36,758 nucleotides of DNA, from the IMG/VR virus record IMGVR_UViG_3300046517_001183, positions 1 to 36,758 of that record; one strand, given 5' to 3'. The DNA comes from a virus. Under the pieces are notes generated by a model that worked only from the letters and a program-made list of their open reading frames with translations, had not been told where the DNA came from and did no database searches. Below, piece after piece: positions 11,141 to 35,809 of this stretch; position 1 is the first letter of the stretch, and each line of letters begins with the position of its first letter. A program made the position numbers and the translations under genes.

Positions 11141-11156
11141 AGTCACTTAGGTGACT
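11141..11156. repeat. Palindrome at the downstream edge of the HNH cassette
   Basis: AGTCAC-TTAG-GTGACT is a 6-bp inverted repeat overlapping the HNH stop codon. Its right arm is part of AGGTGACT (11149-11156), which recurs directly at 11830-11837 at the other edge of the cassette. The pair may be a target duplication or a trace of the homing site. Confidence 0.55.
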
Positions 11157-11773
11157 GCCTCCTTGTAAAGTTTATCATCTTTCCATGTTCTTTTATGTTT
11201 GATAAAGTGAATTACATGTCTTCCCACCCCAAACAACCTACCTATATGTGCTTGCGGTAAGTTTTCACTTAACATTTTTTTTATTTGATTCACTTGGTCA
11301 TTCGTTAGAATGGCAGATGGATTTCTTTCTCCCGAAACACTTCCCGCTTCAGTACGATCTTGCATATTATCTTTATGCGTTCCTAATCTTAAATGCTCAG
11401 GATTTATACATGCTGGCTTATTGCATGAATGTAAAATAAGCATTCCCTCAGGTATTTCACCATTGAAAATTTTATATGATTCTCTATGCGCTGTAGAGTG
11501 TTTGGTATTAATTTTCAATTTTCCATATCCTGATGAATTGAGTTGTTTTTTCCAGATCCAACATTCCCCATCTTTCTCTATTCTATTTAATAGATAACAT
11601 TTTATTGAGCACTCTTTCAACTTTAACTTGTAAAACTTTTCTTTGCAAAAAAGACATTCGTGAATTTGTTTTTTTTCATGCCTTTCTCTTAAATATTTTC
11701 TTCTACACCCCTCGCATTTTTTCCCATGCTTATATTTTTCTACTTCTTTATTACATTCTGTACAAATTTTCAT
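11147..11773 (-). CDS. HNH homing endonuclease, 208 aa
   Basis: The N-terminus has paired zinc-binding cysteines (CTEC..., CEGC, CLFC). Residues ~90-145 carry the HNH_3-type core: AHRESYKIFNGEIPEGMLIL, then HSCNKPACINPEHLRLGTHK with the catalytic His and structural Cys/His, then DNMQDR. The C-terminal ~45 residues (from LTNDQVNQIKKMLSENLPQA) look like a helix-turn-helix DNA-binding tail. It has its own consensus promoter (11795-11823) and AGGAG ribosome site. It sits between the nozzle gene and the decapitated fibre gene. The non-coding flanks (about 50 and 15 nt) are too short for a group I intron, so it is a free-standing mobile endonuclease. Confidence 0.88.
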   Translation of the reverse strand: MKICTECNKEVEKYKHGKKCEGCRRKYLRERHEKKQIHECLFCKEKFYKLKLKECSIKCYLLNRIEKDGECWIWKKQLNSSGYGKLKINTKHSTAHRESYKIFNGEIPEGMLILHSCNKPACINPEHLRLGTHKDNMQDRTEAGSVSGERNPSAILTNDQVNQIKKMLSENLPQAHIGRLFGVGRHVIHFIKHKRTWKDDKLYKEAVT

Positions 11774-17398: not shown

Positions 17399-18355
17399 CT
17401 ATAGTCTTTGTGTTACGTTAAGGCCTGAGATCCAGTTTTGGTTTGTGATCGCACGTGCGATGGCAAACTTAGCATATAACTGGCTGTTTTGTGCAACAGA
17501 AGATACAACATATGGAGGGCGATAACCCAAGATAGCGGTATAATTATTTTGCTCAATTTTTGCGGCAGCTTCTAGACCATACATCGGTATAGTATAAACA
17601 GTCGCACCGCGTAATGAAGCCCCTGGAATTTTGTTCGCTTTGCTAGAAACAAAGAATCTGAATCTAGAAATAGAGCAATATTCTTCTGGGCGTAAACCTT
17701 CTTGTGTTGGATATGCTGATTTTAGCAATACACCCTGTACGTTTTGAAGGTCGGGAGTAATATCAGTAGAAGCAAGAGCAATGAAAGCATCACGAACTCC
17801 AGCTGTACCGAAATTCCGTCCAGCATCTACGCTTTCAAGCATTGTTCTAGCATCATTACCCAATAAAATTCTTTCTATATTGTTTACATCGTTGCGAGTG
17901 ATTTCCGAAGGCTGGTCCCCGTTAACACCTCCTGTAGCGTTGATGTAACTCACTGAGCTAGCGTATAGATCTCTCATTAGAAGATCTTCTTTTTCACGAA
18001 GCCACTGCCCGCAAAGAGCCGTAAATTTCGTTAAGACCTTATCGTTCTCATAGAGAGTGACCTGCTCATTGATAACAACTGTTTTAGCGTAGATTTCCAT
18101 TGTTGCATCTACATCAGTACGAACGACAACTTCTGGAGCTGGATCAATACCAGAACCATCAAGTTGACCGCCGTCTGTACTTAATCTTTCGTATCTTGAC
18201 ATACGAGTAGTTTTACCAATGTTTGACTCTGCATAGTGAAGGTCTGCGCCGAAACTATGAATAAGGTTAAACATTGGCGTGGACAATAGGTCTTCCGAGA
18301 ACTGTAATGGAAGTTCCGGAGCCATATTGTTAATATTGGTTATTCCCTGTGCCAT
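17399..18355 (-). CDS. Major capsid protein, N4-gp56 family
   Basis: The 318-aa protein starts MAQGITNINNMAPELPLQFS and shows the hallmarks of the N4-gp56 family of HK97-fold capsid proteins: an early 'F...LL.......' helix, GADLHYAESNIGKTTRMSRY with the basic E-loop region, VTLYENDKVLTKFTALCGQW and a conserved PEEYCSISRFRFFVSSKANK segment. Length is typical for compact members of the family. It follows the scaffold candidate and DUF551 genes and is separated from them by a structured 133-nt leader with a possible promoter of its own. It will form the icosahedral shell. Confidence 0.85.
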   Translation of the reverse strand: MAQGITNINNMAPELPLQFSEDLLSTPMFNLIHSFGADLHYAESNIGKTTRMSRYERLSTDGGQLDGSGIDPAPEVVVRTDVDATMEIYAKTVVINEQVTLYENDKVLTKFTALCGQWLREKEDLLMRDLYASSVSYINATGGVNGDQPSEITRNDVNNIERILLGNDARTMLESVDAGRNFGTAGVRDAFIALASTDITPDLQNVQGVLLKSAYPTQEGLRPEEYCSISRFRFFVSSKANKIPGASLRGATVYTIPMYGLEAAAKIEQNNYTAILGYRPPYVVSSVAQNSQLYAKFAIARAITNQNWISGLNVTQRL

Positions 18356-18497: not shown

Positions 18498-18716
18498 CGT
18501 TGATTTTTCCTCTTCACGCCATTTGACTACATCAAACATAGGCTCACCAGTTTCAGAGTTTGCCCAATGGTGAGGTTTGTGCCCATAAAATATAAGCCAA
18601 TTATTTTTATCGCTATAAAAATGAGCTTTTGTTATATCCCCATTAGCGGTTTGCACAGTAACTCTTCCGGCAGCGAATCTTTTTGGAAGTCGATCTTTAA
18701 CATCTACCCAGCTCAT
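18489..18716 (-). CDS. DUF551-like protein, 75 aa
   Basis: Begins MSWVDVKDRLPKRFAAGRVT, the W[IV].V.DRLP opening of DUF551, followed by a central 'A.FY.....W' and an ending HHWANSETGEPMFDVVKWRE. DUF551 proteins are small, frequent in phages and of unknown function. Its ATG overlaps the TAA of the scaffold candidate by one base, so it is coupled to that gene and lies inside the capsid cluster, an unusual location. A second DUF551-like gene occurs at 33061-33276. Confidence 0.65.
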   Translation of the reverse strand: MSWVDVKDRLPKRFAAGRVTVQTANGDITKAHFYSDKNNWLIFYGHKPHHWANSETGEPMFDVVKWREEEKSTLQ

Positions 18717-19432
18717 TAAACCATTTTCCTCGCTTTAACCATGCGCTCCCAATTTGCTGCTTTTTTTGCATCATCTAAGTAGTTCGGCGCACTATCTCCA
18801 GTCTGTGTAATACCCGGAATAGACATCGACTGAGGTTTGTTTAGGTTCTGATCGATGCGCTTTTCATCTTTCTTAGAGTTTGGGTTAGGTACTAGTTTTT
18901 TAATAGCTGTGTAGACGGAAGCCCATTTATCGAAGGAGTCTGGCATATATTGAAATGCTTTGGCTATTTCTGGATGATGGAATTCCATATAATCGAGGTT
19001 CTCTTGATTGCAAACGCTTCCAAAATCATTAAAAGTTTGATTTAGTTTCTGAGGAAGATCTTTCATTTCTTGTTTCATTCGCTCTTCTTTTTGTCTAGCA
19101 TCGCGCGCCTGGAGGATATTCTCGAGCTTTCTTTCTAGAAGTTTGTCTTCATTTTCTTCTTCATATTGGTTTTCATAATGTGTTTGCATTGAACTTGGCT
19201 TATTAAGCACTGAGTCAAGGGCCGCCTTGAGAGCTTCGGCTTCGGTGGCGGCTTTAGCTGCTCTTTCTTCAGCCTCTTTTCTTCTTGCTTCAGATTCCGC
19301 GCGATCTTGTCTGAATTTGCGCCAATTTATCTGCTCTGCGGTTTCCTCTTGTGGCACGGCTTCTGTTTTTTCTGGCTCAACTTGTGTTTTTTCTGCTACA
19401 TTTGTATTTTCAATAACTTTTTCTTCTGACAT
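18716..19432 (-). CDS. Putative capsid scaffolding protein, 238 aa
   Basis: Starting at the ATG 19430-19432 the protein opens MSEEKVIENTNVAEKTQVEP, is acidic and Gln/Glu-rich, has a coiled-coil region at about residues 40-140 (RAESEARRKEAEERAAKAAT) and a basic C-terminus ending ANWERMVKARKMV. Acidic coiled-coil proteins with a basic helix at the end, placed just before the major capsid gene, are the usual scaffold of P22-like and N4-gp56 phages. A longer in-frame extension upstream is antisense to the 19442 gene and lacks a ribosome site, so I reject it. Confidence 0.7.
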   Translation of the reverse strand: MSEEKVIENTNVAEKTQVEPEKTEAVPQEETAEQINWRKFRQDRAESEARRKEAEERAAKAATEAEALKAALDSVLNKPSSMQTHYENQYEEENEDKLLERKLENILQARDARQKEERMKQEMKDLPQKLNQTFNDFGSVCNQENLDYMEFHHPEIAKAFQYMPDSFDKWASVYTAIKKLVPNPNSKKDEKRIDQNLNKPQSMSIPGITQTGDSAPNYLDDAKKAANWERMVKARKMV

Positions 19433-19441
19433 AGGTTCCTC

Positions 19442-19762
19442 ATGAATGATGATATTAAAGACTCTGAAACTGTTAAATTTGATGATACAACACTCCAAGA
19501 GGAAGTGCAAAAGTATTTTACTTCTAAACGCTTTAACGAAGATTTATTTCATTATCGTGATTTAATGAGCGTGATTCAAACTGACGTGCCATTGAGTGCT
19601 ATATGTCTGCCAAAAAAGTTAGAAAACATGCTAATTAAACAAGGGTTCAATCGCATCAGTGATTTTAGGGGGATTAATCTTGCTGAAATCGAAGGCCTCG
19701 GTAATACCTGGAGGCATCTCCTTTGCGCCCGCCTGGATGAGTTCTTCACGGTGGGTATTTAG
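19442..19762 (+). CDS. RNA polymerase alpha-CTD-like protein, 106 aa, antisense in capsid operon
   Basis: Residues ~50-101 (PLSAICLPKKLENMLIKQGF, RISDFRGINLAEIEGLGNTW, RHLLCARLDEFF) follow the helix-hairpin-helix pattern of the C-terminal domain of the RNA polymerase alpha subunit: 'L....LKxxgI.tI.DL....L..I.GLG.k....I...L'. Residues 1-48 are an acidic helical segment. It begins 9 bp from the divergent scaffold gene and its last 132 bases overlap the 3' end of the 19631-20263 gene on the opposite strand. The ribosome site is weak (TAGG). If expressed it could mimic the promoter-contacting domain of host polymerase and steer transcription; other HhH DNA-binding roles are possible. Whole setting suggests regulation by antisense too. 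Confidence 0.6.
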   Translation: MNDDIKDSETVKFDDTTLQEEVQKYFTSKRFNEDLFHYRDLMSVIQTDVPLSAICLPKKLENMLIKQGFNRISDFRGINLAEIEGLGNTWRHLLCARLDEFFTVGI

Positions 19763-20263
19763 ATATTCTATTTCTGAAAGCATATTTATTTCATGCTGCT
19801 TTCGTATGAATTCCCAAAACTTGCCATCATAGAAAGCTTCAGCCCATTCTTTCATAGTCTGATATTGTTTAGGAACATTTACGGTTTGATATAAACGCTC
19901 CATAGTCCAGGCTTGAGGGTTACCGGAGAAAGCGGCAGGCAGTATCCATAACCGTTTAGTGAAAGCAGCCAAGGTCTTATTATAAAGGAATACTGCCTGC
20001 TCCGGGCGAGGAGAGGGAAGGTAAAGCATTGCGAAAAACTTTCTTCGCATGATCCCTTTGATTAAGGGGTCAGAAGTGATAACAAATCCAACACAAAATT
20101 CATCTTCATCGAAGATTTTACTGTGATGTATTGCGCATTCATATAGATTCTTTTCGATAGAGCCATCATCGGCAAGATGTTGTCCTATTTCACGAGCATT
20201 ATATTTAGTCTGGTCGGAGGCTGCCTCGAGTGTAAGCGCCCCCGCCGTCTTTCTTTTTTTCAT
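19631..20263 (-). CDS. Conserved-looking phage protein, 210 aa
   Basis: The start at 20263 overlaps the preceding stop (TGATG). The protein is mixed alpha/beta with FCVGFVITSDPLIKGIMRRK, FFAMLYLPSPRPEQAVFLYN and an aromatic-rich WEFIRKQHEINMLSEIEYLN region, ending in a Pro/Ile-rich tail (INPPKITDAIEPLFN). It lies between the portal-side small genes and the scaffold, in the main late operon. I do not recognise a family; a capsid-maturation or packaging-related role is possible from its place. Its last 44 codons are antisense to the alpha-CTD-like gene. Confidence 0.6.
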   Translation of the reverse strand: MKKRKTAGALTLEAASDQTKYNAREIGQHLADDGSIEKNLYECAIHHSKIFDEDEFCVGFVITSDPLIKGIMRRKFFAMLYLPSPRPEQAVFLYNKTLAAFTKRLWILPAAFSGNPQAWTMERLYQTVNVPKQYQTMKEWAEAFYDGKFWEFIRKQHEINMLSEIEYLNTHREELIQAGAKEMPPGITEAFDFSKINPPKITDAIEPLFN

Positions 20264-20478
20264 CAATGATCTGTCGAATTAACTTTATTATGCATTGTTG
20301 GACGATCTTTAGCACATTTAGGATCAAAAGCATGTAAAGGATCGGGCTTCTGGTCCCCTTTTGACACGCTATATCTTATTTCCCAATGTTTTTTAGGCGT
20401 TGAAGATCCCTTTCCTGGAACTGAAGCGTCAGGTCCATGATTATCATGATGCTTTTGATAGCTTGGGCTTTTAGACAT
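20263..20478 (-). CDS. Small KKHWE-motif protein, 71 aa
   Basis: Hydrophilic, His/Lys/Pro-rich protein with little predicted structure (MSKSPSYQKHHDNHGPDASV). It contains PKKHWEIRYSVSK, which aligns with PKEHWEVDHNVLE in the next gene upstream; the two are probably diverged duplicates. Coupled by overlap to the following 210-aa gene. Function unknown. Confidence 0.55.
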   Translation of the reverse strand: MSKSPSYQKHHDNHGPDASVPGKGSSTPKKHWEIRYSVSKGDQKPDPLHAFDPKCAKDRPTMHNKVNSTDH

Positions 20479-20667: not shown

Positions 20668-22698
20668 TCAAACTCCTGTTTGACTTGGTTGATTTTCTAA
20701 ACGACTAGCTTCTTTTCGCTGTTGTGCGAAGTCAAAAGCTTTTTTAATTTGATTGAATTGCACATCTTCCATTTCCATCGCAAGTTTAACGAGATTGTAG
20801 TCAGATTCGATTTCTTTATGTTCTGATGTTGCATGGATTTCTTCTACCCTGGCCATTTTCTCTTGTGCCGAAGCCATTAATTCTTGTTCTCGTGCTAGAT
20901 CTGCTCTAGACTTGGCATATTCTACCATCATTTTAGATTGATCTTTCTGCGCTTCGGATTGAGCTTGTGCTTGCTGTTGCTGCATTTGTTGTTGTTGTTC
21001 TTCTTCCATATTAGCAATGACTTGCTTTTTGTTGGTAATGAATGCAGCGCCGAGAATATCTTTGTTTGAGATAGGAAGTCCGATCTCTTTGAAGTAAAGA
21101 AGCTGTTGAAGCTCTGTTTGTCTCTGTGTTGCTGAGTAATTACCTTCTTCAACTTGAACAGAATACTTCAAGGATTTCGACGAGAAGAAACCGGGAGACG
21201 GTTCCCGGCCAAGAATCTGTGCAACTTTTCCTTTGCTAAAGTTTTTACGGATAGCTTCTAATCTTATTTTGCCGTAGATTCTTTGTGTATAGTCTGATTT
21301 ATCAAAAATAGTTTGAAGTGTTGTAAGGCCCGCTCCTTGGCGAAGCATGGAGAGGATGCCCGCTTTATCATCTGTTGCAGAACCTAGCAATTCTTCGTTG
21401 ACTCCACTAATCTTCATGATATCTTCTGACAAGATACGAGATAACTCCAACATAGACATTGGGATATCAGGCGCTGTTATCCGTTGAATTTCATTGGGAA
21501 GGCGTCCTGCTTTAAGTGGCACAAGGAACCCTTGTCCTGACTGTCTGAAAGCTTTAGGATCAACAACAGCATCAATTGGATAGATCCAGCCTGAATTGAT
21601 CTGAGACTGAAGTATATCCATCTCAATCACTTTGCGCATGTTATAGCAGTATTGCACATCACGTAATGCTCTGACTACACCCTGAATTCTCCATTGATAG
21701 GATTGAATATCAGGTTCATGGTAGCAAAGGTGCGGTGCGAATGGATACATGTCGATATTAAGAAGGTTAGGGCCGTGATAGACAACCTTATTTCCAATCA
21801 ATATACCAAGTTTTACAGTTGGTATCTCCATGTCCTTAACTTTAAGCCAAGGCTGCATACGTAACACTTGCTCTAATTCGTCCTCTATTTCTTCCTCTTG
21901 ATCTTCTTCCCATTCCATGCTTTCGCCTGTCTTTGGATCGATGATCATTTTAGCTGTACGTGTTGTTCTATAGTAAAATTCATCAAAGGCAAATAGTCTA
22001 TTTGTATCGAGATTGATTAACTCTGCCTGAAGAGGAAATCTACCATCTTTTGCTCCCGATGGAGAGAGTTTATCAATGAATTCACTTTTGCCCGGTAGTA
22101 AAGCTTTGGCCGCGTTTTTATTCACCCAACGACGGCGCCAAATGAATCCACAATCTGTAAGATCCATCTTGCGGAAATAGGGATCAATTAGAATGTTATT
22201 ATAGCTTACTTGATCAGTGAAAAGATCGCCGGATACAGGATCGAGTGTATAATCCGGGTACATATGTAACATGTTAAGTCCAACATCAACACCACCGGCA
22301 AAAGACTGACTAAAATACTCTTGGAAACCATCACGATTTTCACACCACTTCAAAACTGAATTATAATCATCACAGAGTGCATCCTCTTGATGCAGTGGCA
22401 TTGTGATAGTCGACTTGCGATTACGCCTCTGGAAGCCTTCTATCATGTTTGTTTGACGTCGGATGAGATTAAAGAAGAATCTCCGTGATTGGAAATATTG
22501 GTTATCTCCGTAAATCATAGACCAAAGAGATTGGTCTCCAGCTTTAAACCTTTTATCTATACTTCCTTGCTGCCAAAAAGCGGCATTAGCAGGATATGAT
22601 GACGTATAATAATGAGCCATCATCTGCTTAAGATTCTTAGAGTCAACATCCGTATCTTCTACGTAGAACCCACTACCTTCGCTGTCGTATGAACCCAT
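20668..22698 (-). CDS. Portal protein, P22-like
   Basis: At 676 aa it has the size of P22 gp1-type portals. Recognisable parts are an N-terminal 'YY.......W' region, RRFFFNLIRRQTNMIEGFQR, the clip/stem portion YQWRIQGVVRALRDVQYCYN and IMKISGVNEELLGSATDDKA, and a C-terminal barrel helix that is Gln- and Glu-rich (about residues 565-650; EEEQQQQMQQQQAQAQSEAQ). Twelve copies form the vertex through which DNA enters and leaves. It follows terminase, from which it is separated by an HNH endonuclease cassette. Confidence 0.85.
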   Translation of the reverse strand: MGSYDSEGSGFYVEDTDVDSKNLKQMMAHYYTSSYPANAAFWQQGSIDKRFKAGDQSLWSMIYGDNQYFQSRRFFFNLIRRQTNMIEGFQRRNRKSTITMPLHQEDALCDDYNSVLKWCENRDGFQEYFSQSFAGGVDVGLNMLHMYPDYTLDPVSGDLFTDQVSYNNILIDPYFRKMDLTDCGFIWRRRWVNKNAAKALLPGKSEFIDKLSPSGAKDGRFPLQAELINLDTNRLFAFDEFYYRTTRTAKMIIDPKTGESMEWEEDQEEEIEDELEQVLRMQPWLKVKDMEIPTVKLGILIGNKVVYHGPNLLNIDMYPFAPHLCYHEPDIQSYQWRIQGVVRALRDVQYCYNMRKVIEMDILQSQINSGWIYPIDAVVDPKAFRQSGQGFLVPLKAGRLPNEIQRITAPDIPMSMLELSRILSEDIMKISGVNEELLGSATDDKAGILSMLRQGAGLTTLQTIFDKSDYTQRIYGKIRLEAIRKNFSKGKVAQILGREPSPGFFSSKSLKYSVQVEEGNYSATQRQTELQQLLYFKEIGLPISNKDILGAAFITNKKQVIANMEEEQQQQMQQQQAQAQSEAQKDQSKMMVEYAKSRADLAREQELMASAQEKMARVEEIHATSEHKEIESDYNLVKLAMEMEDVQFNQIKKAFDFAQQRKEASRLENQPSQTGV

Positions 22699-22743: not shown

Positions 22744-23343
22744 TTACGACAAAGAAATATCTTTGGTCACGGTGTACCCATATGACTCAATAAATTCTTT
22801 CGCCCAAGCAATCTTATCCTCTACTCTTTGGCCAGCAGGTTGTCCTTTGTGCCACAATTCAAGATTTTCAATCCGATTGTCATTTCTAATTCCATTTTTA
22901 TGGTGAACAGATTCATCTTTTCGTATAGATCTTCCAAGATGCTGGCTCATTACATATGTATGTTCTGCGATTCTTCCTGTTTTACTTGTACAGTTCGGAT
23001 GGCCTAATTTAGTCATTTGGAAATATCCATTTTTATCAAGATGACCATCCCCATTTTTCCTTTTCATCAAAGGGGCTTCGGGATCTTGACCCCTGCATTT
23101 TCTTCTAGATTTAAATTTAGCTATCCGTTTTTTTTCCTTGTAAATAGGATCTCTACCCTCTAACATCTTAATATAACATGTTTTACACAATCTGTGAGTT
23201 TTATTAGCTATATAAACATTTGTTCTTTTACAAGAAGAACAATTTATTCCTAAAGTTTTTTCGAATCTTTTTTTTTCCGCACATGTATGACAAAAATATC
23301 CGGGATAATTAAATTCTTTGAAACAATGTTTGCATGATTTCAC
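22744..23343 (-). CDS. HNH homing endonuclease, 199 aa
   Basis: I use the GTG at 23343 (VKSCKHCFKEFNYPGYFCHT) because GAGG precedes it at the proper distance; the longer frame starts inside the operator palindrome. Four zinc-type Cys pairs fill the first ~65 residues. Residues ~130-175 carry the HNH core: RIAEHTYVMSQHLGRSIRKD, ESVHHKNGIRNDNRIENLEL, W. This subclass is different from the 11147-11773 enzyme. The cassette lies between large terminase and portal, both apparently intact, and has its own promoter and a palindrome over the start site. Confidence 0.85.
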   Translation of the reverse strand: MKSCKHCFKEFNYPGYFCHTCAEKKRFEKTLGINCSSCKRTNVYIANKTHRLCKTCYIKMLEGRDPIYKEKKRIAKFKSRRKCRGQDPEAPLMKRKNGDGHLDKNGYFQMTKLGHPNCTSKTGRIAEHTYVMSQHLGRSIRKDESVHHKNGIRNDNRIENLELWHKGQPAGQRVEDKIAWAKEFIESYGYTVTKDISLS

Positions 23344-23354
23344 ATAAACCTCAC

Positions 23355-23370
23355 TGTATACAAGTATACA
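23355..23370. promoter_or_regulatory. Operator-like palindrome at the HNH start site
   Basis: TGTATAC-AA-GTATACA is a perfect 7-bp inverted repeat with a 2-bp centre. It lies just downstream of the -10 box, covering the expected transcription start, which is a typical repressor position. It suggests autoregulation of the endonuclease or control by the host or phage. Confidence 0.6.
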
Positions 23371-23371
23371 C

Positions 23372-23400
23372 ATTATACATACACTCCAAGTTGAAGTCTA
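23372..23400 (-). promoter_or_regulatory. Promoter of the second HNH gene
   Basis: On the minus strand TAGACT (23395-23400) and a perfect TATAAT (23372-23377) are 17 bp apart. The -35 overlaps the stop codon of the large terminase gene. Confidence 0.6.
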
Positions 23401-31107: not shown

Positions 31108-32127
31108 CTAAAACATCCTAAGTTTTTTAGTCACATTGTCTTCGATCGCGCGTTTGTCGTAATATGATATCATATTTAGGCCTGTGTGTCCAGTGACGAT
31201 CATCATATCTAGGGGATCTGTTCCTTGGCGAAGCGCCTCAGTAACCCATGTAGCACGCAGCATGTGGGGGTGGACGTGTTGAATTCCGGCATTCGAAGCA
31301 GCAAGCTTGAAGGCGTCACCTACAGCTGTCCGTCCTAGCTTTTTTTTGAACTTAGACACAAAAACCCATCGGTTATGATCCCGGTAATTTTCTGTGGCGT
31401 CTATGTATGCTTTTAGTTCAAACAAGAACTCGGGCGGGAATGAAACAGGAATCATCTTAAGAGTGCCGCTTGTTTTGAGTTGCGTAAAATTTATTGTGTT
31501 TTTTTCGTAGTCTATATCCGTAGTTTTTATATTCAGAACCTCCGAAACTCTCTTTGCTCCCTGAAACAAACAGCGAGCGATTAGAGACTCGCGGTGGCTG
31601 ATGTTTCTGAGCTCAAATATGAATTTAGCCCATTCTTGTCGCGAAAGGGCTTCTGTTGCTGCTTTTTCTCTTGGCTTGACGAATGTTGCACCAACCCCGC
31701 GCTTTGCTATGGCTATGCGTGTTTTACCGTGTGTGCGGCGACTAAGGAATCTTGTAAATGAAATAAAAACTTTTGCGCGGGTTTGCCTAACATTTTCCGT
31801 CCAGCCTTCGTATGCCTTGATCTTATCAACAATTAATTCTAAATTAACTGAAGCAAATCGATCAATCGTATGGTTTGGAAAAAACCCCCTGTCAATAAGA
31901 TTATTCATGTAGTAGTAATAGGCGCGAGAGGTGGTTTTCCCTAGAGATTTTAGCCACTCGTCGATGTAATCCCAGACAAAAAGTCCAAAGGTTCCCGTGG
32001 CAATAATCTCGCAATCGTCATGGGCGTGGGAGCTTAAAACTGCTGTTGGTTCGGACACGACAGGGCTGCCGCCTCCAGTTACAATTGTTCTTGTAGACTG
32101 ATTATTTATGTTTCCGATGTATGTCAT
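31108..32127 (-). CDS. int: Tyrosine recombinase (integrase), chlamydial plasmid-like
   Basis: From the ATG at 32127 (339 aa) the core-binding domain occupies ~50-135 and the catalytic domain ~155-339. Catalytic residues: Arg193 (QGAKRVSEVL), Lys218, His288 and Arg291 (HPHMLRAT), His314 (VTGHTG) and Tyr322/323 (SYYDKR). RAKVFISFTRFL, LSRQEWAKF and RWVFVSKF match, in order, segments I remember from chlamydial plasmid integrases pGP7/pGP8 (ISFTKFL, SKQEW, RVFVSK, LRA). The longer frame to 32202 would pass through its promoter. Expected to integrate and excise the circle; a host attachment site was not found. Confidence 0.85.
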   Translation of the reverse strand: MTYIGNINNQSTRTIVTGGGSPVVSEPTAVLSSHAHDDCEIIATGTFGLFVWDYIDEWLKSLGKTTSRAYYYYMNNLIDRGFFPNHTIDRFASVNLELIVDKIKAYEGWTENVRQTRAKVFISFTRFLSRRTHGKTRIAIAKRGVGATFVKPREKAATEALSRQEWAKFIFELRNISHRESLIARCLFQGAKRVSEVLNIKTTDIDYEKNTINFTQLKTSGTLKMIPVSFPPEFLFELKAYIDATENYRDHNRWVFVSKFKKKLGRTAVGDAFKLAASNAGIQHVHPHMLRATWVTEALRQGTDPLDMMIVTGHTGLNMISYYDKRAIEDNVTKKLRMF

Positions 32128-32170
32128 GCGAGTAATCCAATTTAAAGTTTTAATTAAGTTGTTGAGTATA

Positions 32171-32199
32171 AGTATACCAGAAAGTGTTTTCAGTGTAAA
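32171..32199 (-). promoter_or_regulatory. Integrase promoter
   Basis: TTTACA (32194-32199), 17-bp spacer, TATACT (32171-32176) on the minus strand, 44 bp before the integrase start. The -35 and spacer are covered by the inverted repeat at 32181-32205, so repression is likely. Confidence 0.7.
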
Positions 32200-32219
32200 C
32201 ACTTTAGATTACTCTAAAG
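32181..32219. promoter_or_regulatory. Two adjacent operator-like inverted repeats at the integrase promoter
   Basis: AAAGTGTTT-7-AAACACTTT (32181-32205) is a perfect 9-bp dyad covering the -35; CTTTAGA-TTAC-TCTAAAG (32202-32219) is a perfect 7-bp dyad just upstream. They are probable binding sites for a repressor or an excisionase-like protein. The rest of the gap to 32406 is AT-rich with a TTGACA-17-TAACGT promoter-like sequence (32310-32338) for the next plus gene. Confidence 0.65.
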
Positions 32220-33499: not shown

Positions 33500-33730
33500 T
33501 TAATCCTCATAGACTTTTACATGTTTCAGGGTTACTTTCAGCGCCGTACATAGATTGTCGACCACTTCCTCGTGTTGATGTGGATGATATATATTGAAGA
33601 TGATTTTTGCTATACAAATCATGAGAATATCTAGCCATTCATCTTCATCTTCGTAAAGTTTTGAAAGCTCTAAAATGATCTGTGTTGCAACGTCATTGTC
33701 ATCAAAATAATCGTCAGGAGATTTTTTCAT
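33500..33730 (-). CDS. Hypothetical 76-aa protein, coupled to the HTH gene
   Basis: I start at ATG 33730, which overlaps the TGA of the HTH gene (ATGA). Product: MKKSPDDYFDDNDVATQIIL ... HHPHQHEE-like, acidic and helical with a His-rich turn (YHPHQHEE). Tight coupling to a regulator suggests a partner or antagonist. Unknown. Confidence 0.55.
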   Translation of the reverse strand: MKKSPDDYFDDNDVATQIILELSKLYEDEDEWLDILMICIAKIIFNIYHPHQHEEVVDNLCTALKVTLKHVKVYED

Positions 33731-33918
33731 TTTAATTTCAATATCTCCACTGCCTTCACTTTTCCTTCGCAAAAGGCTTCTATCTTTCTTGCTAATTGTA
33801 ACGAGGGAATTCTTCTTTCGTTAATGATTGTATTGAAATAGCTTCTAGAGATTCCCAACTTTTTCGCCACTTTTACAGCAGACAATCCTTTGTCTTCTAA
33901 ATAATCTTTTATCTTCAT
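33727..33918 (-). CDS. Cro/CI-type HTH regulator, 63 aa
   Basis: From ATG 33918 (GAGG upstream): MKIKDYLEDKGLSAVKVAKK, LGISRSYFNTIINERRIPSL, the HTH_3 fold with recognition helix SRSYFNTIIN. Too short to carry a cleavage or dimer domain, so Cro- or HigA-like rather than CI-like. It is the first gene of the early minus operon, divergent from the recombination operon, and should bind the dyads at 33941-34010. Confidence 0.75.
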   Translation of the reverse strand: MKIKDYLEDKGLSAVKVAKKLGISRSYFNTIINERRIPSLQLARKIEAFCEGKVKAVEILKLK

Positions 33919-34052: not shown

Positions 34053-34328
34053 ATGAGAAAACATTTAGAATATCTGAAAACAGATGATTGCGAATATTAT
34101 ATATCTGATAAAATGGCTCTAGATATATGTATGCACGATATGAAAACCTACTTCAACGAAATCATAAACGTATTATTGGGCAACAAAAAAATGAGCGATG
34201 ATGATCTTTTTTTCTGCGTGGATAAAGTCAGTTATCACTTGGGATTATCTATCCCAGAAAACGCACGATTTGCCATAGCATTTAGTGACGTGAAAAATGA
34301 TTGCGTTATTGACAAAGAGGTGTGGTAA
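34053..34328 (+). CDS. Hypothetical 91-aa protein, first in the recombination operon
   Basis: Charged N-terminus (MRKHLEYLKTDDCEYYISDK) then CMHDMKTYFNEIINVLLGNK. AGGAG ribosome site. TAATG overlap with the ERF gene. Position suggests a helper of recombination or a host-nuclease inhibitor; no family recognised. Confidence 0.6.
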   Translation: MRKHLEYLKTDDCEYYISDKMALDICMHDMKTYFNEIINVLLGNKKMSDDDLFFCVDKVSYHLGLSIPENARFAIAFSDVKNDCVIDKEVW

Positions 34329-34930
34329 TGGATTTGCATTCAACAGAAATTTCAGAGATCGCAAAAGCTCTTTCAAAGGTTCAATCCGTTCTTGAGGGTG
34401 CCTCTAAAAGCTCGGTAAATCCGCATTTTAAGTCAAAGTATTCAGATCTAAGATCTATATGGGACTCTCTAAGAGACATCCTTCCTGAAAATGGACTATC
34501 TGTAACGCAGATTATGAGTCCGATTGATGGTAGAGATTACATGATAACCATGCTCATGCACACTTCTGGGCAGTGGATTAAGTCTGTGCTTCCGTTAATG
34601 ATAGAGAAGGTTACTAGCCAGGGCCTGGGATCGGCGATTAGTTACAGTAGGCGATATGCGCTAGCTGCTATCGTGGGAGTATATCAAGAAGATGATGACG
34701 GTAATGCTGCTACATTCATTTCAAGGAAGCAGGTTGCTGAGCTTGTGTCGCTGCTAAAAGGTCATTCGGAGATACATTCTCATCTAATGACACAACTTGC
34801 TAAAACCAACACCCTCGCATTAGATAAAATTCAAGTAGATGATTATGAGAAAATTTATGCAATGGTAGATGGTTGGGTGAAAAAGAAAACAGAAAAATTA
34901 GAGGAAAATAAAGACGAAGGAGAACAATAA
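34328..34930 (+). CDS. erf: ERF-type single-strand annealing protein
   Basis: The 200-aa protein shows the ERF family pattern: IAKALSKVQSVLEGASKSSV, NPHFKSKYSDLRSIWDSLRD, ILPENGLSVTQIM, and GSAISYSRRYALAAIVGVYQ followed by EDDDGN. It anneals complementary single strands, pairing with the exonuclease at 35189. Start ATG 34328 follows GAGGTG; a GTG two codons earlier is possible. C-terminus is a charged helix. Confidence 0.85.
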   Translation: MDLHSTEISEIAKALSKVQSVLEGASKSSVNPHFKSKYSDLRSIWDSLRDILPENGLSVTQIMSPIDGRDYMITMLMHTSGQWIKSVLPLMIEKVTSQGLGSAISYSRRYALAAIVGVYQEDDDGNAATFISRKQVAELVSLLKGHSEIHSHLMTQLAKTNTLALDKIQVDDYEKIYAMVDGWVKKKTEKLEENKDEGEQ

Positions 34931-34931
34931 A

Positions 34932-35192
34932 ATGGATTCAGCACAGATTTTAACCGTGTTTGCTGTTGTTGCAGCAAATCTTGGCACCGTCATTACATTA
35001 TATATTCAGACAGACAACAAAATTGAAGCTAATAGAAAAGAGGTTACGTCGGTAATCGAATCTAATAGAAAAGAAACAACAGCAATGATTAATGCAATAA
35101 GAGAAGATATCCGGGATTTTCACGGAAAACTTGAACGTCAAGATGCAGAATTCAAGGCCCACATAATTCACAATCACCAGAAGTCTCAATGA
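34932..35192 (+). CDS. Small membrane-anchored coiled-coil protein, 86 aa
   Basis: One membrane segment (residues ~5-24, AQILTVFAVVAANLGTVITL), then a coiled coil (IEANRKEVTSVIESNRKETT, IREDIRDFHGKLERQDAEFK). Layout like the 28349-28543 protein. It lies between ERF and exonuclease genes; its end overlaps the next start by 4 nt. Function unknown; could tie recombination to the membrane or be an exclusion factor. Confidence 0.55.
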   Translation: MDSAQILTVFAVVAANLGTVITLYIQTDNKIEANRKEVTSVIESNRKETTAMINAIREDIRDFHGKLERQDAEFKAHIIHNHQKSQ

Positions 35193-35809
35193 AAAAGATT
35201 AGCCTACAGCAAGGAAGCGACCTTTGGCTGGAATTCAGGCGCACCCGAATTGGTGCGTCTGATCTTCCTATCATTGTAGGAGAAAGCCCATATATGACAG
35301 TTCAATCTCTCTGGGAAGAAAAGTTATTGTTTAGATCGCCTCAGATTATGAGTTACTACATGCAACGCGGTGTTGATCTAGAATCAACAGCAAGAGGTCT
35401 AATTTGCGATGTAATGGGCTATCCGTTCGATCCATGCGTGATTCAGCATGACAAGGTCGACTATCTGATAGCCAGCTTAGATGGCCTTAATGAAGATGCT
35501 GGCGTTATCTGTGAAATCAAATGCCCAGGAATGAAGACACATCTCATGGCTATCAATGGAGAAATCCCCGCCCATTATCAATGGCAGATAGAACATCAAT
35601 TTCTCGTTTCTGGCTTAAAAGATTGCCTTTACGTATCTTATAATCCAGATCACACAGAAAAACCTTTGATTATAATTGAACGATCCGTAAACTTAGAGCT
35701 ACACAATTTCATTTTAGAGAAAACTAAAGAGTTCTGGGAGTGTCTGCAGTCCATCACACCGCCCCCCAAAAAAGAACGCAAAAACAAAAAAAGGGAAACA
35801 GAGGGTTAA
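35189..35809 (+). CDS. YqaJ-type exonuclease
   Basis: A 206-aa RecB-like nuclease: QQGSDLWLEFRRTRIGASDL, PIIVGESPYMTVQSLWEEK, RGVDLESTAR, the catalytic ASLDGL and CEIKCP (Asp, Glu-x-Lys), and HYQWQIEHQFLVSGLKDCLY. Digests one strand of duplex ends so the ERF protein can anneal. ATGA overlap with the preceding gene. Basic C-terminus. Confidence 0.85.
   Translation: MKKISLQQGSDLWLEFRRTRIGASDLPIIVGESPYMTVQSLWEEKLLFRSPQIMSYYMQRGVDLESTARGLICDVMGYPFDPCVIQHDKVDYLIASLDGLNEDAGVICEIKCPGMKTHLMAINGEIPAHYQWQIEHQFLVSGLKDCLYVSYNPDHTEKPLIIIERSVNLELHNFILEKTKEFWECLQSITPPPKKERKNKKRETEG

Follow-up and report, generated by a model that had tools for sequence, protein, structure and literature searches.

Genomic context of the antisense gene

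The stretch of DNA examined in this study, referred to throughout as the window, is the IMG/VR virus record IMGVR_UViG_3300046517_001183, a single linear piece of 36,758 bases. We focused on a plus-strand open reading frame (ORF) of 106 amino acids at positions 19442–19762, located within a block of head genes encoded on the minus strand. These head genes follow the order terminase, HNH gene, P22-like portal, two small genes, a 211-amino-acid (211-aa) gene, a 238-aa scaffold-like gene, a 75-aa gene and coat. The ORF fills exactly the slot between the 211-aa gene and the scaffold-like gene, on the opposite strand to both. A preliminary description of the window had placed a 106-aa plus-strand ORF between two minus-strand genes, with a 132-bp overlap with a gene of 210 aa; this architecture was confirmed, and the sequence quoted for the ORF is present. 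As detailed below, the ORF is a genuine conserved gene of a podovirus-like phage family, and its product is predicted to carry a domain with the fold of the C-terminal domain of the RNA polymerase (RNAP) alpha subunit (alpha-CTD). The features of the locus are as follows.

19442–19762, plus strand: antisense gene, 106 aa, ATG start, with a predicted N-terminal helix and alpha-CTD-fold domain (ORF, homologues and selection)
19484–19579, plus strand: predicted long helix, residues 15–46, with an invariant Tyr38 (AlphaFold2 secondary structure and family alignment)
19580–19759, plus strand: predicted alpha-CTD-like domain, residues 47–106, with the helix-hairpin-helix I-E-G-L-G at residues 83–87 (hmmsearch of PDB, AlphaFold2 with Foldseek, hhalign with decoys)
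19430–19444, both strands: divergent translation starts, the scaffold-like ATG at 19430–19432 (minus) and the antisense-gene ATG at 19442–19444 (plus), 9 bp apart (sequence)
19631–19762, both strands: dual-coding overlap of 132 bp, including the stop of the antisense gene, with opposite-strand codons in register (stop-codon avoidance and silent sites)
19631–20266, minus strand: 211-aa gene of no assigned family, TTG start (210 aa from the next ATG) (ORF)
18716–19432, minus strand: scaffold-like gene, 238 aa (position between portal and coat, charged composition)
17399–18355, minus strand: major coat protein (PHROG 1357 major head protein, E = 3.2e-12)
20668–22698, minus strand: P22-like portal protein (PF16510, E = 5e-59)

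The name scaffold-like reflects position only, since this gene has no family match in Pfam or PHROG. A longer version of it, starting at a TTG and reaching 19510, was rejected as an artefactual extension—the likely true start is the ATG at 19432.

Conservation of the antisense gene across related phages

When used alone as a query, the window ORF yielded no convincing relative in tblastn searches of phage records or in viral contigs, no match above chance in Pfam or PHROG, and nothing beyond ribosomal protein L5 noise among PDB sequences. One weak match, to an 'Acinetobacter phage' record, was dismissed as chance, the surroundings being bacterial chromosomal genes. Relatives were gathered via the portal, coat and 211-aa genes, and the same slot was then inspected in each of them. 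Both flanks, the C-terminus of the 211-aa gene and the scaffold-like start, are present in 110 distinct related loci, and every one of these has a homologue in the same position and in antisense orientation; with family queries against the 110 distinct sequences, the least convincing homologue had an E-value of 2e-16. The homologues are stand-alone ORFs in all members, with a median length of ~96 aa, and they share 22–45% identity with the window protein (70 aligned members). Seventeen loci lacked a homologue, and in all of these except L004 the contig did not reach the slot, covering only the portal, or the coat and in some cases scaffold sequence. In L004, a distant relative with 32% portal identity, a different gene occupies the slot and the antisense homologue is absent. 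The sporadic presence between close relatives that would mark a moron-like gene was not observed—every one of the 110 loci was positive and only the distant L004 was negative. In one relative (L025, 3567–3690), the usual register between the antisense ORF and the 211-aa gene is lost and the antisense C-terminus is unrelated, reflecting either a frameshift or an assembly error.

Both reading frames are under selection

Antisense open runs of at least 90 codons occur in 62% of the related portal genes, so an ORF of this length is insignificant in any one genome; the initial single-genome observation was weak by itself, and it is the comparison across relatives that makes the case strong. Outside any overlap, the ratio of nonsynonymous to synonymous differences per site (pN/pS) of the antisense gene was 0.18 for the closest pairs and 0.40–0.53 for more distant pairs, in which silent sites are saturated; pairs were binned according to the identity of the 211-aa protein and not of the antisense protein itself. 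In this non-overlapping part, pS exceeded pN in 658 of 667 pairs. About 60% of the antisense gene in the window lies outside the minus-strand gene, and this part is likewise under selection.

Within the overlap, the antisense stops TAA, TAG and TGA correspond to TTA, CTA and TCA codons in the 211-aa gene, which were counted on fixed alignment columns. These three codons make up 528 of the 1,544 Leu/Ser codons outside the overlap and 39 of 408 inside it. Moreover, all 39 fall at columns where antisense ORFs end—an end placed within 3 alignment columns in 69 loci—and beyond those columns none was found among 296 Leu/Ser codons. Differences at fourfold sites follow the same pattern, amounting to 0.33–0.37 inside the overlap versus 0.67–0.71 outside (0.16 versus 0.53 for the closest pairs). 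The 211-aa protein stays conserved inside the overlap, and hence both frames are selected in the shared DNA. The sequences are related, so pooled counts give p-values that are too optimistic; even so, the difference is large. As a control, the far better conserved coat gene keeps no antisense run longer than 48 columns. Codon conservation in the relatives is thus not confined to the minus frame, and the antisense coding put forward in the preliminary description is supported.

The 211-aa protein has no Pfam or PHROG match, its confident structure model has no fold match, and it is overlapped from residue 169 onward, with residues 181–211 predicted to be disordered (predicted local distance difference test score, pLDDT, of 37–55). 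On the other strand, the DNA of this predicted disordered tail encodes the folded core of the alpha-CTD-like domain. Given the predicted disorder at precisely the place where the antisense frame encodes a folded domain, this C-terminal tail is probably the tolerant, later partner of the overlap.

Translation starts of the divergent pair

Nearly every member has an antisense start that either overlaps that of the scaffold-like gene or is at most ~15 bp distant; antisense starts were chosen by rule, and a few are probably wrong. The gap between the two starts resembles GGAGNCTCC in many relatives, with one Shine-Dalgarno (SD) motif per strand, each serving its own gene, and in some members (L003, with CATATG) the two start codons abut or overlap. 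In 34 of 71 members, one of the motifs GGAG, GAGG or AGGA lies between −17 and −4 relative to the antisense start, compared with 3.1 in shuffled sequences, and at other position intervals the same motifs were found in 0–11 members, mostly 1–4. At the window locus, GAGGAA precedes the scaffold-like gene and a weaker AGG precedes the antisense gene. No plus-strand terminator-like site was found after the antisense ORF in the region scanned, to 20300.

The antisense protein resembles the alpha-CTD of RNA polymerase

The C-terminal part of the protein family has the consensus PIxVLCLPKxIExxLxxxGxLRVYDLxxxDLxKIKGLGxxRxxxLTxRLDxFF. When the family profile was run against all PDB sequences with hmmsearch, RNAP alpha subunits made up matches 1–8, the best being the Thermus alpha-CTD 1doq (E = 9.1e-4). 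In Pfam, the family with the best E-value was PF03118 (1.8e-4), which also had the joint highest member count (7 of 71); HHH_5 and HHH_8 were among the weak matches of family members. The hhalign score for four RpoA CTDs and the Thermus sequence taken together was 28.2, against a maximum of 16.4 for 100 column-shuffled decoys.

Structure prediction with AlphaFold2, based on 71 sequences, returned a helix at residues 15–46 followed by a small all-helical domain, with a mean pLDDT of 76 and values mostly between 80 and 90 in the domain. The first twelve Foldseek matches of this model in the PDB were all RNAP alpha or RNAP complexes, with root-mean-square deviations of 1.3–1.4 Å over 58–59 residues for several isolated alpha-CTDs, template modeling scores of 0.66–0.79 by target and a probability of 0.99. 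The alpha-CTD helix-hairpin-helix guessed at in the preliminary description therefore has support, as far as the fold is concerned, from the profile search of the PDB, the predicted structure and the RpoA alignments, and structural matches to the alpha-CTD were indeed obtained. Resting on a sequence profile and a predicted structure, the assignment of a long N-terminal helix followed by an alpha-CTD-fold domain is well supported.

Proposed role and alternative explanations

The simplest use for such a protein would be as an early or prophage-stage regulator of RNAP or promoters. The alpha-CTD-like domain may dock on RNAP, sigma or promoter DNA, and the N-terminal helix may provide dimerization or a second contact. 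Expression of the antisense gene would require a plus-strand transcript of its own, produced either in the prophage or ahead of activation of the late minus-strand head operon. Late transcripts that cross the 211-aa and scaffold-like genes span all of the antisense gene, and late expression should for that reason oppose it: once the operon is on, passing polymerases and a fully complementary late mRNA could silence the gene. Conversely, opposition to capsid expression, as proposed in the preliminary description, follows from the geometry if the antisense gene is transcribed. We thus favor, with roughly even confidence, a small alpha-CTD-fold transcription regulator that is produced early or in the prophage and silenced once the late head operon is active. 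A more elaborate proposal, which we advance only tentatively, is that a stand-alone alpha-CTD-like subunit acting on host RNAP, sigma or promoters, in combination with the antisense geometry and its near-touching starts, forms a toggle, early/late or lysogenic/lytic, that permits expression of the regulator or of the capsid but not of both.

Several observations weigh against a role of this kind. PF03118 was matched by only 7 of 71 members at E ≤ 1, the window protein not being among them; the E-values from Foldseek, at 0.2, are modest for a domain this small, and the N-terminal domains of the Rad51 type, with their helix-hairpin-helix, come next after the alpha matches. Upstream of the antisense start, sigma70-like promoters showed no enrichment over shuffles, although the motif may not be of the host's type. 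In the alpha subunit of E. coli, DNA of the UP element is contacted by Arg265, Asn268, Gly296, Lys298, Ser299 and Glu302, and we set the equivalents of these residues by hand from the profile alignments, which are ungapped up to the middle loop. The equivalent of Arg265 is Arg in 0 of 71 members (Val, Lys, Ala, Ser and others are found instead), and the contacts of Lys298 (kept in 10 of 71), Ser299 (mostly Arg) and Glu302 (8 of 71) are not retained either. The equivalent of Asn268 is Asn in 26 members and that of Gly296 is Gly in 64. With Arg265 gone in all 71 members, canonical UP-element binding is not supported, and the redirection of host polymerase envisaged in the preliminary description appears less straightforward. 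Since both the DNA-contact residues and an alpha N-terminal domain (alpha-NTD) were looked for and are missing, the protein would have the alpha-CTD fold but would not qualify as an RNAP subunit. Glycines of helix-hairpin-helix motifs contact the DNA backbone, and backbone binding stays possible because the hairpin glycines are retained (G85 in 70 of 71 members and G87 in 64 of 71). Additionally, the family has a conserved set of its own—C55, K58, E61, R71, Y73, D74 and R90—which suggests a distinct surface.

These residue patterns bear directly on two competing explanations of function. The protein might be a generic helix-hairpin-helix protein that binds DNA or RNA backbones non-specifically through its G-L-G hairpin, with a role in replication, recombination or packaging and no contact to RNAP. 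The conserved hairpin glycines, the loss of the contacts specific to alpha-CTD, the HHH_5 and HHH_8 matches and the Rad51-family domains in the fold search all agree with such a protein; however, RNAP alpha ranked on top in three independent comparisons, and the alignment spans the whole alpha-CTD and extends beyond the hairpin. We regard this explanation as possible, albeit doubtful. Retention of the fold with loss of the Arg265 contact is also what an inhibitory decoy might display, i.e., a protein that takes the place of the host alpha-CTD on one of its partners (an activator, sigma region 4, NusA or an Spx-like factor) and thereby shuts off host transcription, with C55, K58, E61, R71, Y73 and R90 as a separate conserved set. 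We consider such a decoy unlikely.

Two further explanations treat the reading frame as incidental. The selected product could be mainly a cis-regulatory antisense RNA, which by its geometry would target the 211-aa gene at its 3′ end and the scaffold gene at its start, with the reading frame as a by-product of the transcript; the purifying selection on amino acids outside the overlap, the stop avoidance, the SD motifs belonging to the gene and the recognizable fold render this very improbable. Similarly, the ORF could be spurious and mirror the conservation of the minus-strand gene, given that isolated antisense ORFs this long often arise by chance and that antisense frames can inherit conservation from their mother gene (PMC7457138). 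Selection in the non-overlapping ~60% of the gene refutes such mirroring, and the coat gene offers no comparable antisense run, leaving this explanation a negligible probability.

Host hints and other features of the window

Elsewhere in the window, a tyrosine recombinase gene (31108–32202, minus strand) has Chlamydiota plasmids as all nine of its best plasmid matches (Simkania with 38% identity and E = 6e-49; Criblamydia, Waddlia, Rhabdochlamydia and Chlamydiifrater), and its matches to phages are weak (3e-8). Environmental Chlamydiota may be the hosts of these tailed phages. The only two GTDB contigs with this coat (L095 and L096) are binned in one Bacteroidetes and one Nitrospiraceae metagenome-assembled genome—conflicting assignments that probably stem from mis-binning. 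A Bacteroidetes host is argued against by inference, since SD motifs are used. One further locus (L130) comes from IMG genome id 2651869516 and not from a 33000... metagenome id, and may represent an isolate, single-cell or binned genome.

Genes for an ERF annealase and a YqaJ nuclease (34053–35809, plus strand) diverge from a Cro/C1-like repressor gene (33727–33915, minus strand), and this is a probable early region; the antisense gene lies on the same strand as these putative early genes. Two neighboring tail-like genes (300–1775 and 1784–2773, both minus strand) encode nearly identical first 30 residues (MANVGTGTAGKVLTATGVTSSSAFK...), and this shared start suggests exchangeable C-terminal modules. 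Finally, two HNH-type genes inside the structural block, at 22744–23373 (HNH_3) and 11147–11773 (judged by eye), both on the minus strand, likely encode homing endonucleases.

Significance and comparison with known systems

Phages commonly take over the host RNAP, and a look-alike of a polymerase piece, fixed in a widespread family of uncultured phages, would represent a new route of takeover. The locus also provides an unusually well-supported case of a long-lived antisense coding gene, in which an ancient structured fold shares DNA with a predicted disordered tail and the divergent starts are a few bases apart. Gene callers that forbid overlaps on opposite strands can drop such genes, and regulators within structural operons may be missed as a result.

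Compared with the alpha-CTD of RNAP (PF03118; 1doq, 3gfk and 9dvt), the antisense protein has the same predicted fold, helix order and closing helix-hairpin-helix, together with the P-[ILV]-x-x-L-x-L start and the D-L turn, and the two are colinear over ~52 columns. In contrast, the phage protein lacks an alpha-NTD, has an N-terminal helix in place of the flexible linker and a middle loop three residues shorter, and does not keep the Arg265, Lys298, Ser299 and Glu302 positions. Stand-alone phage proteins annotated as 'RNA polymerase alpha subunit C-terminal domain-containing' have been deposited for Mycobacterium phage Mithril (A0A5Q2WLP1), Rhodococcus phage Finch (A0A2P1JY10) and an uncultured Caudovirales phage (A0A6J5MNY7); they are alike by fold, the only level at which they were compared, with weak matches (E = 0.04–3). 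The best viral fold matches were A0A6J5LGC0 and A0A6J5LGT9, uncharacterized proteins of uncultured Caudovirales in BFVD (E = 1e-5 and 9e-5, 27–29% identity over 89–90 columns), which are probably members of the same family. We found no experimental study of a stand-alone alpha-CTD protein from a phage in the open-access literature.

Phage interference at the alpha subunit has precedents: T4 Alt and ModA target the alpha subunit of the host. The phiKMV-like phages do so with their Rac protein (PMC7552054). Whereas these proteins modify or cleave the host alpha, the product of the antisense gene resembles the alpha-CTD itself. Antisense overlapping genes are also known, e.g., gene 10/olg1 of Pseudomonas phage Fc02 (PMC9936078) and cases in E. 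coli O157:H7 (PMC9927249), and share with the present locus the arrangement of two opposite-strand coding genes on the same DNA; what sets the antisense gene described here apart is that its ancient fold can be recognized and that, within the head operon, the gene is fixed throughout a broad virus family. Phage alpha-CTD annotations and the class of antisense overlaps were thus already known, and what is new is a whole family in which such a protein is fixed antisense within the head operon.
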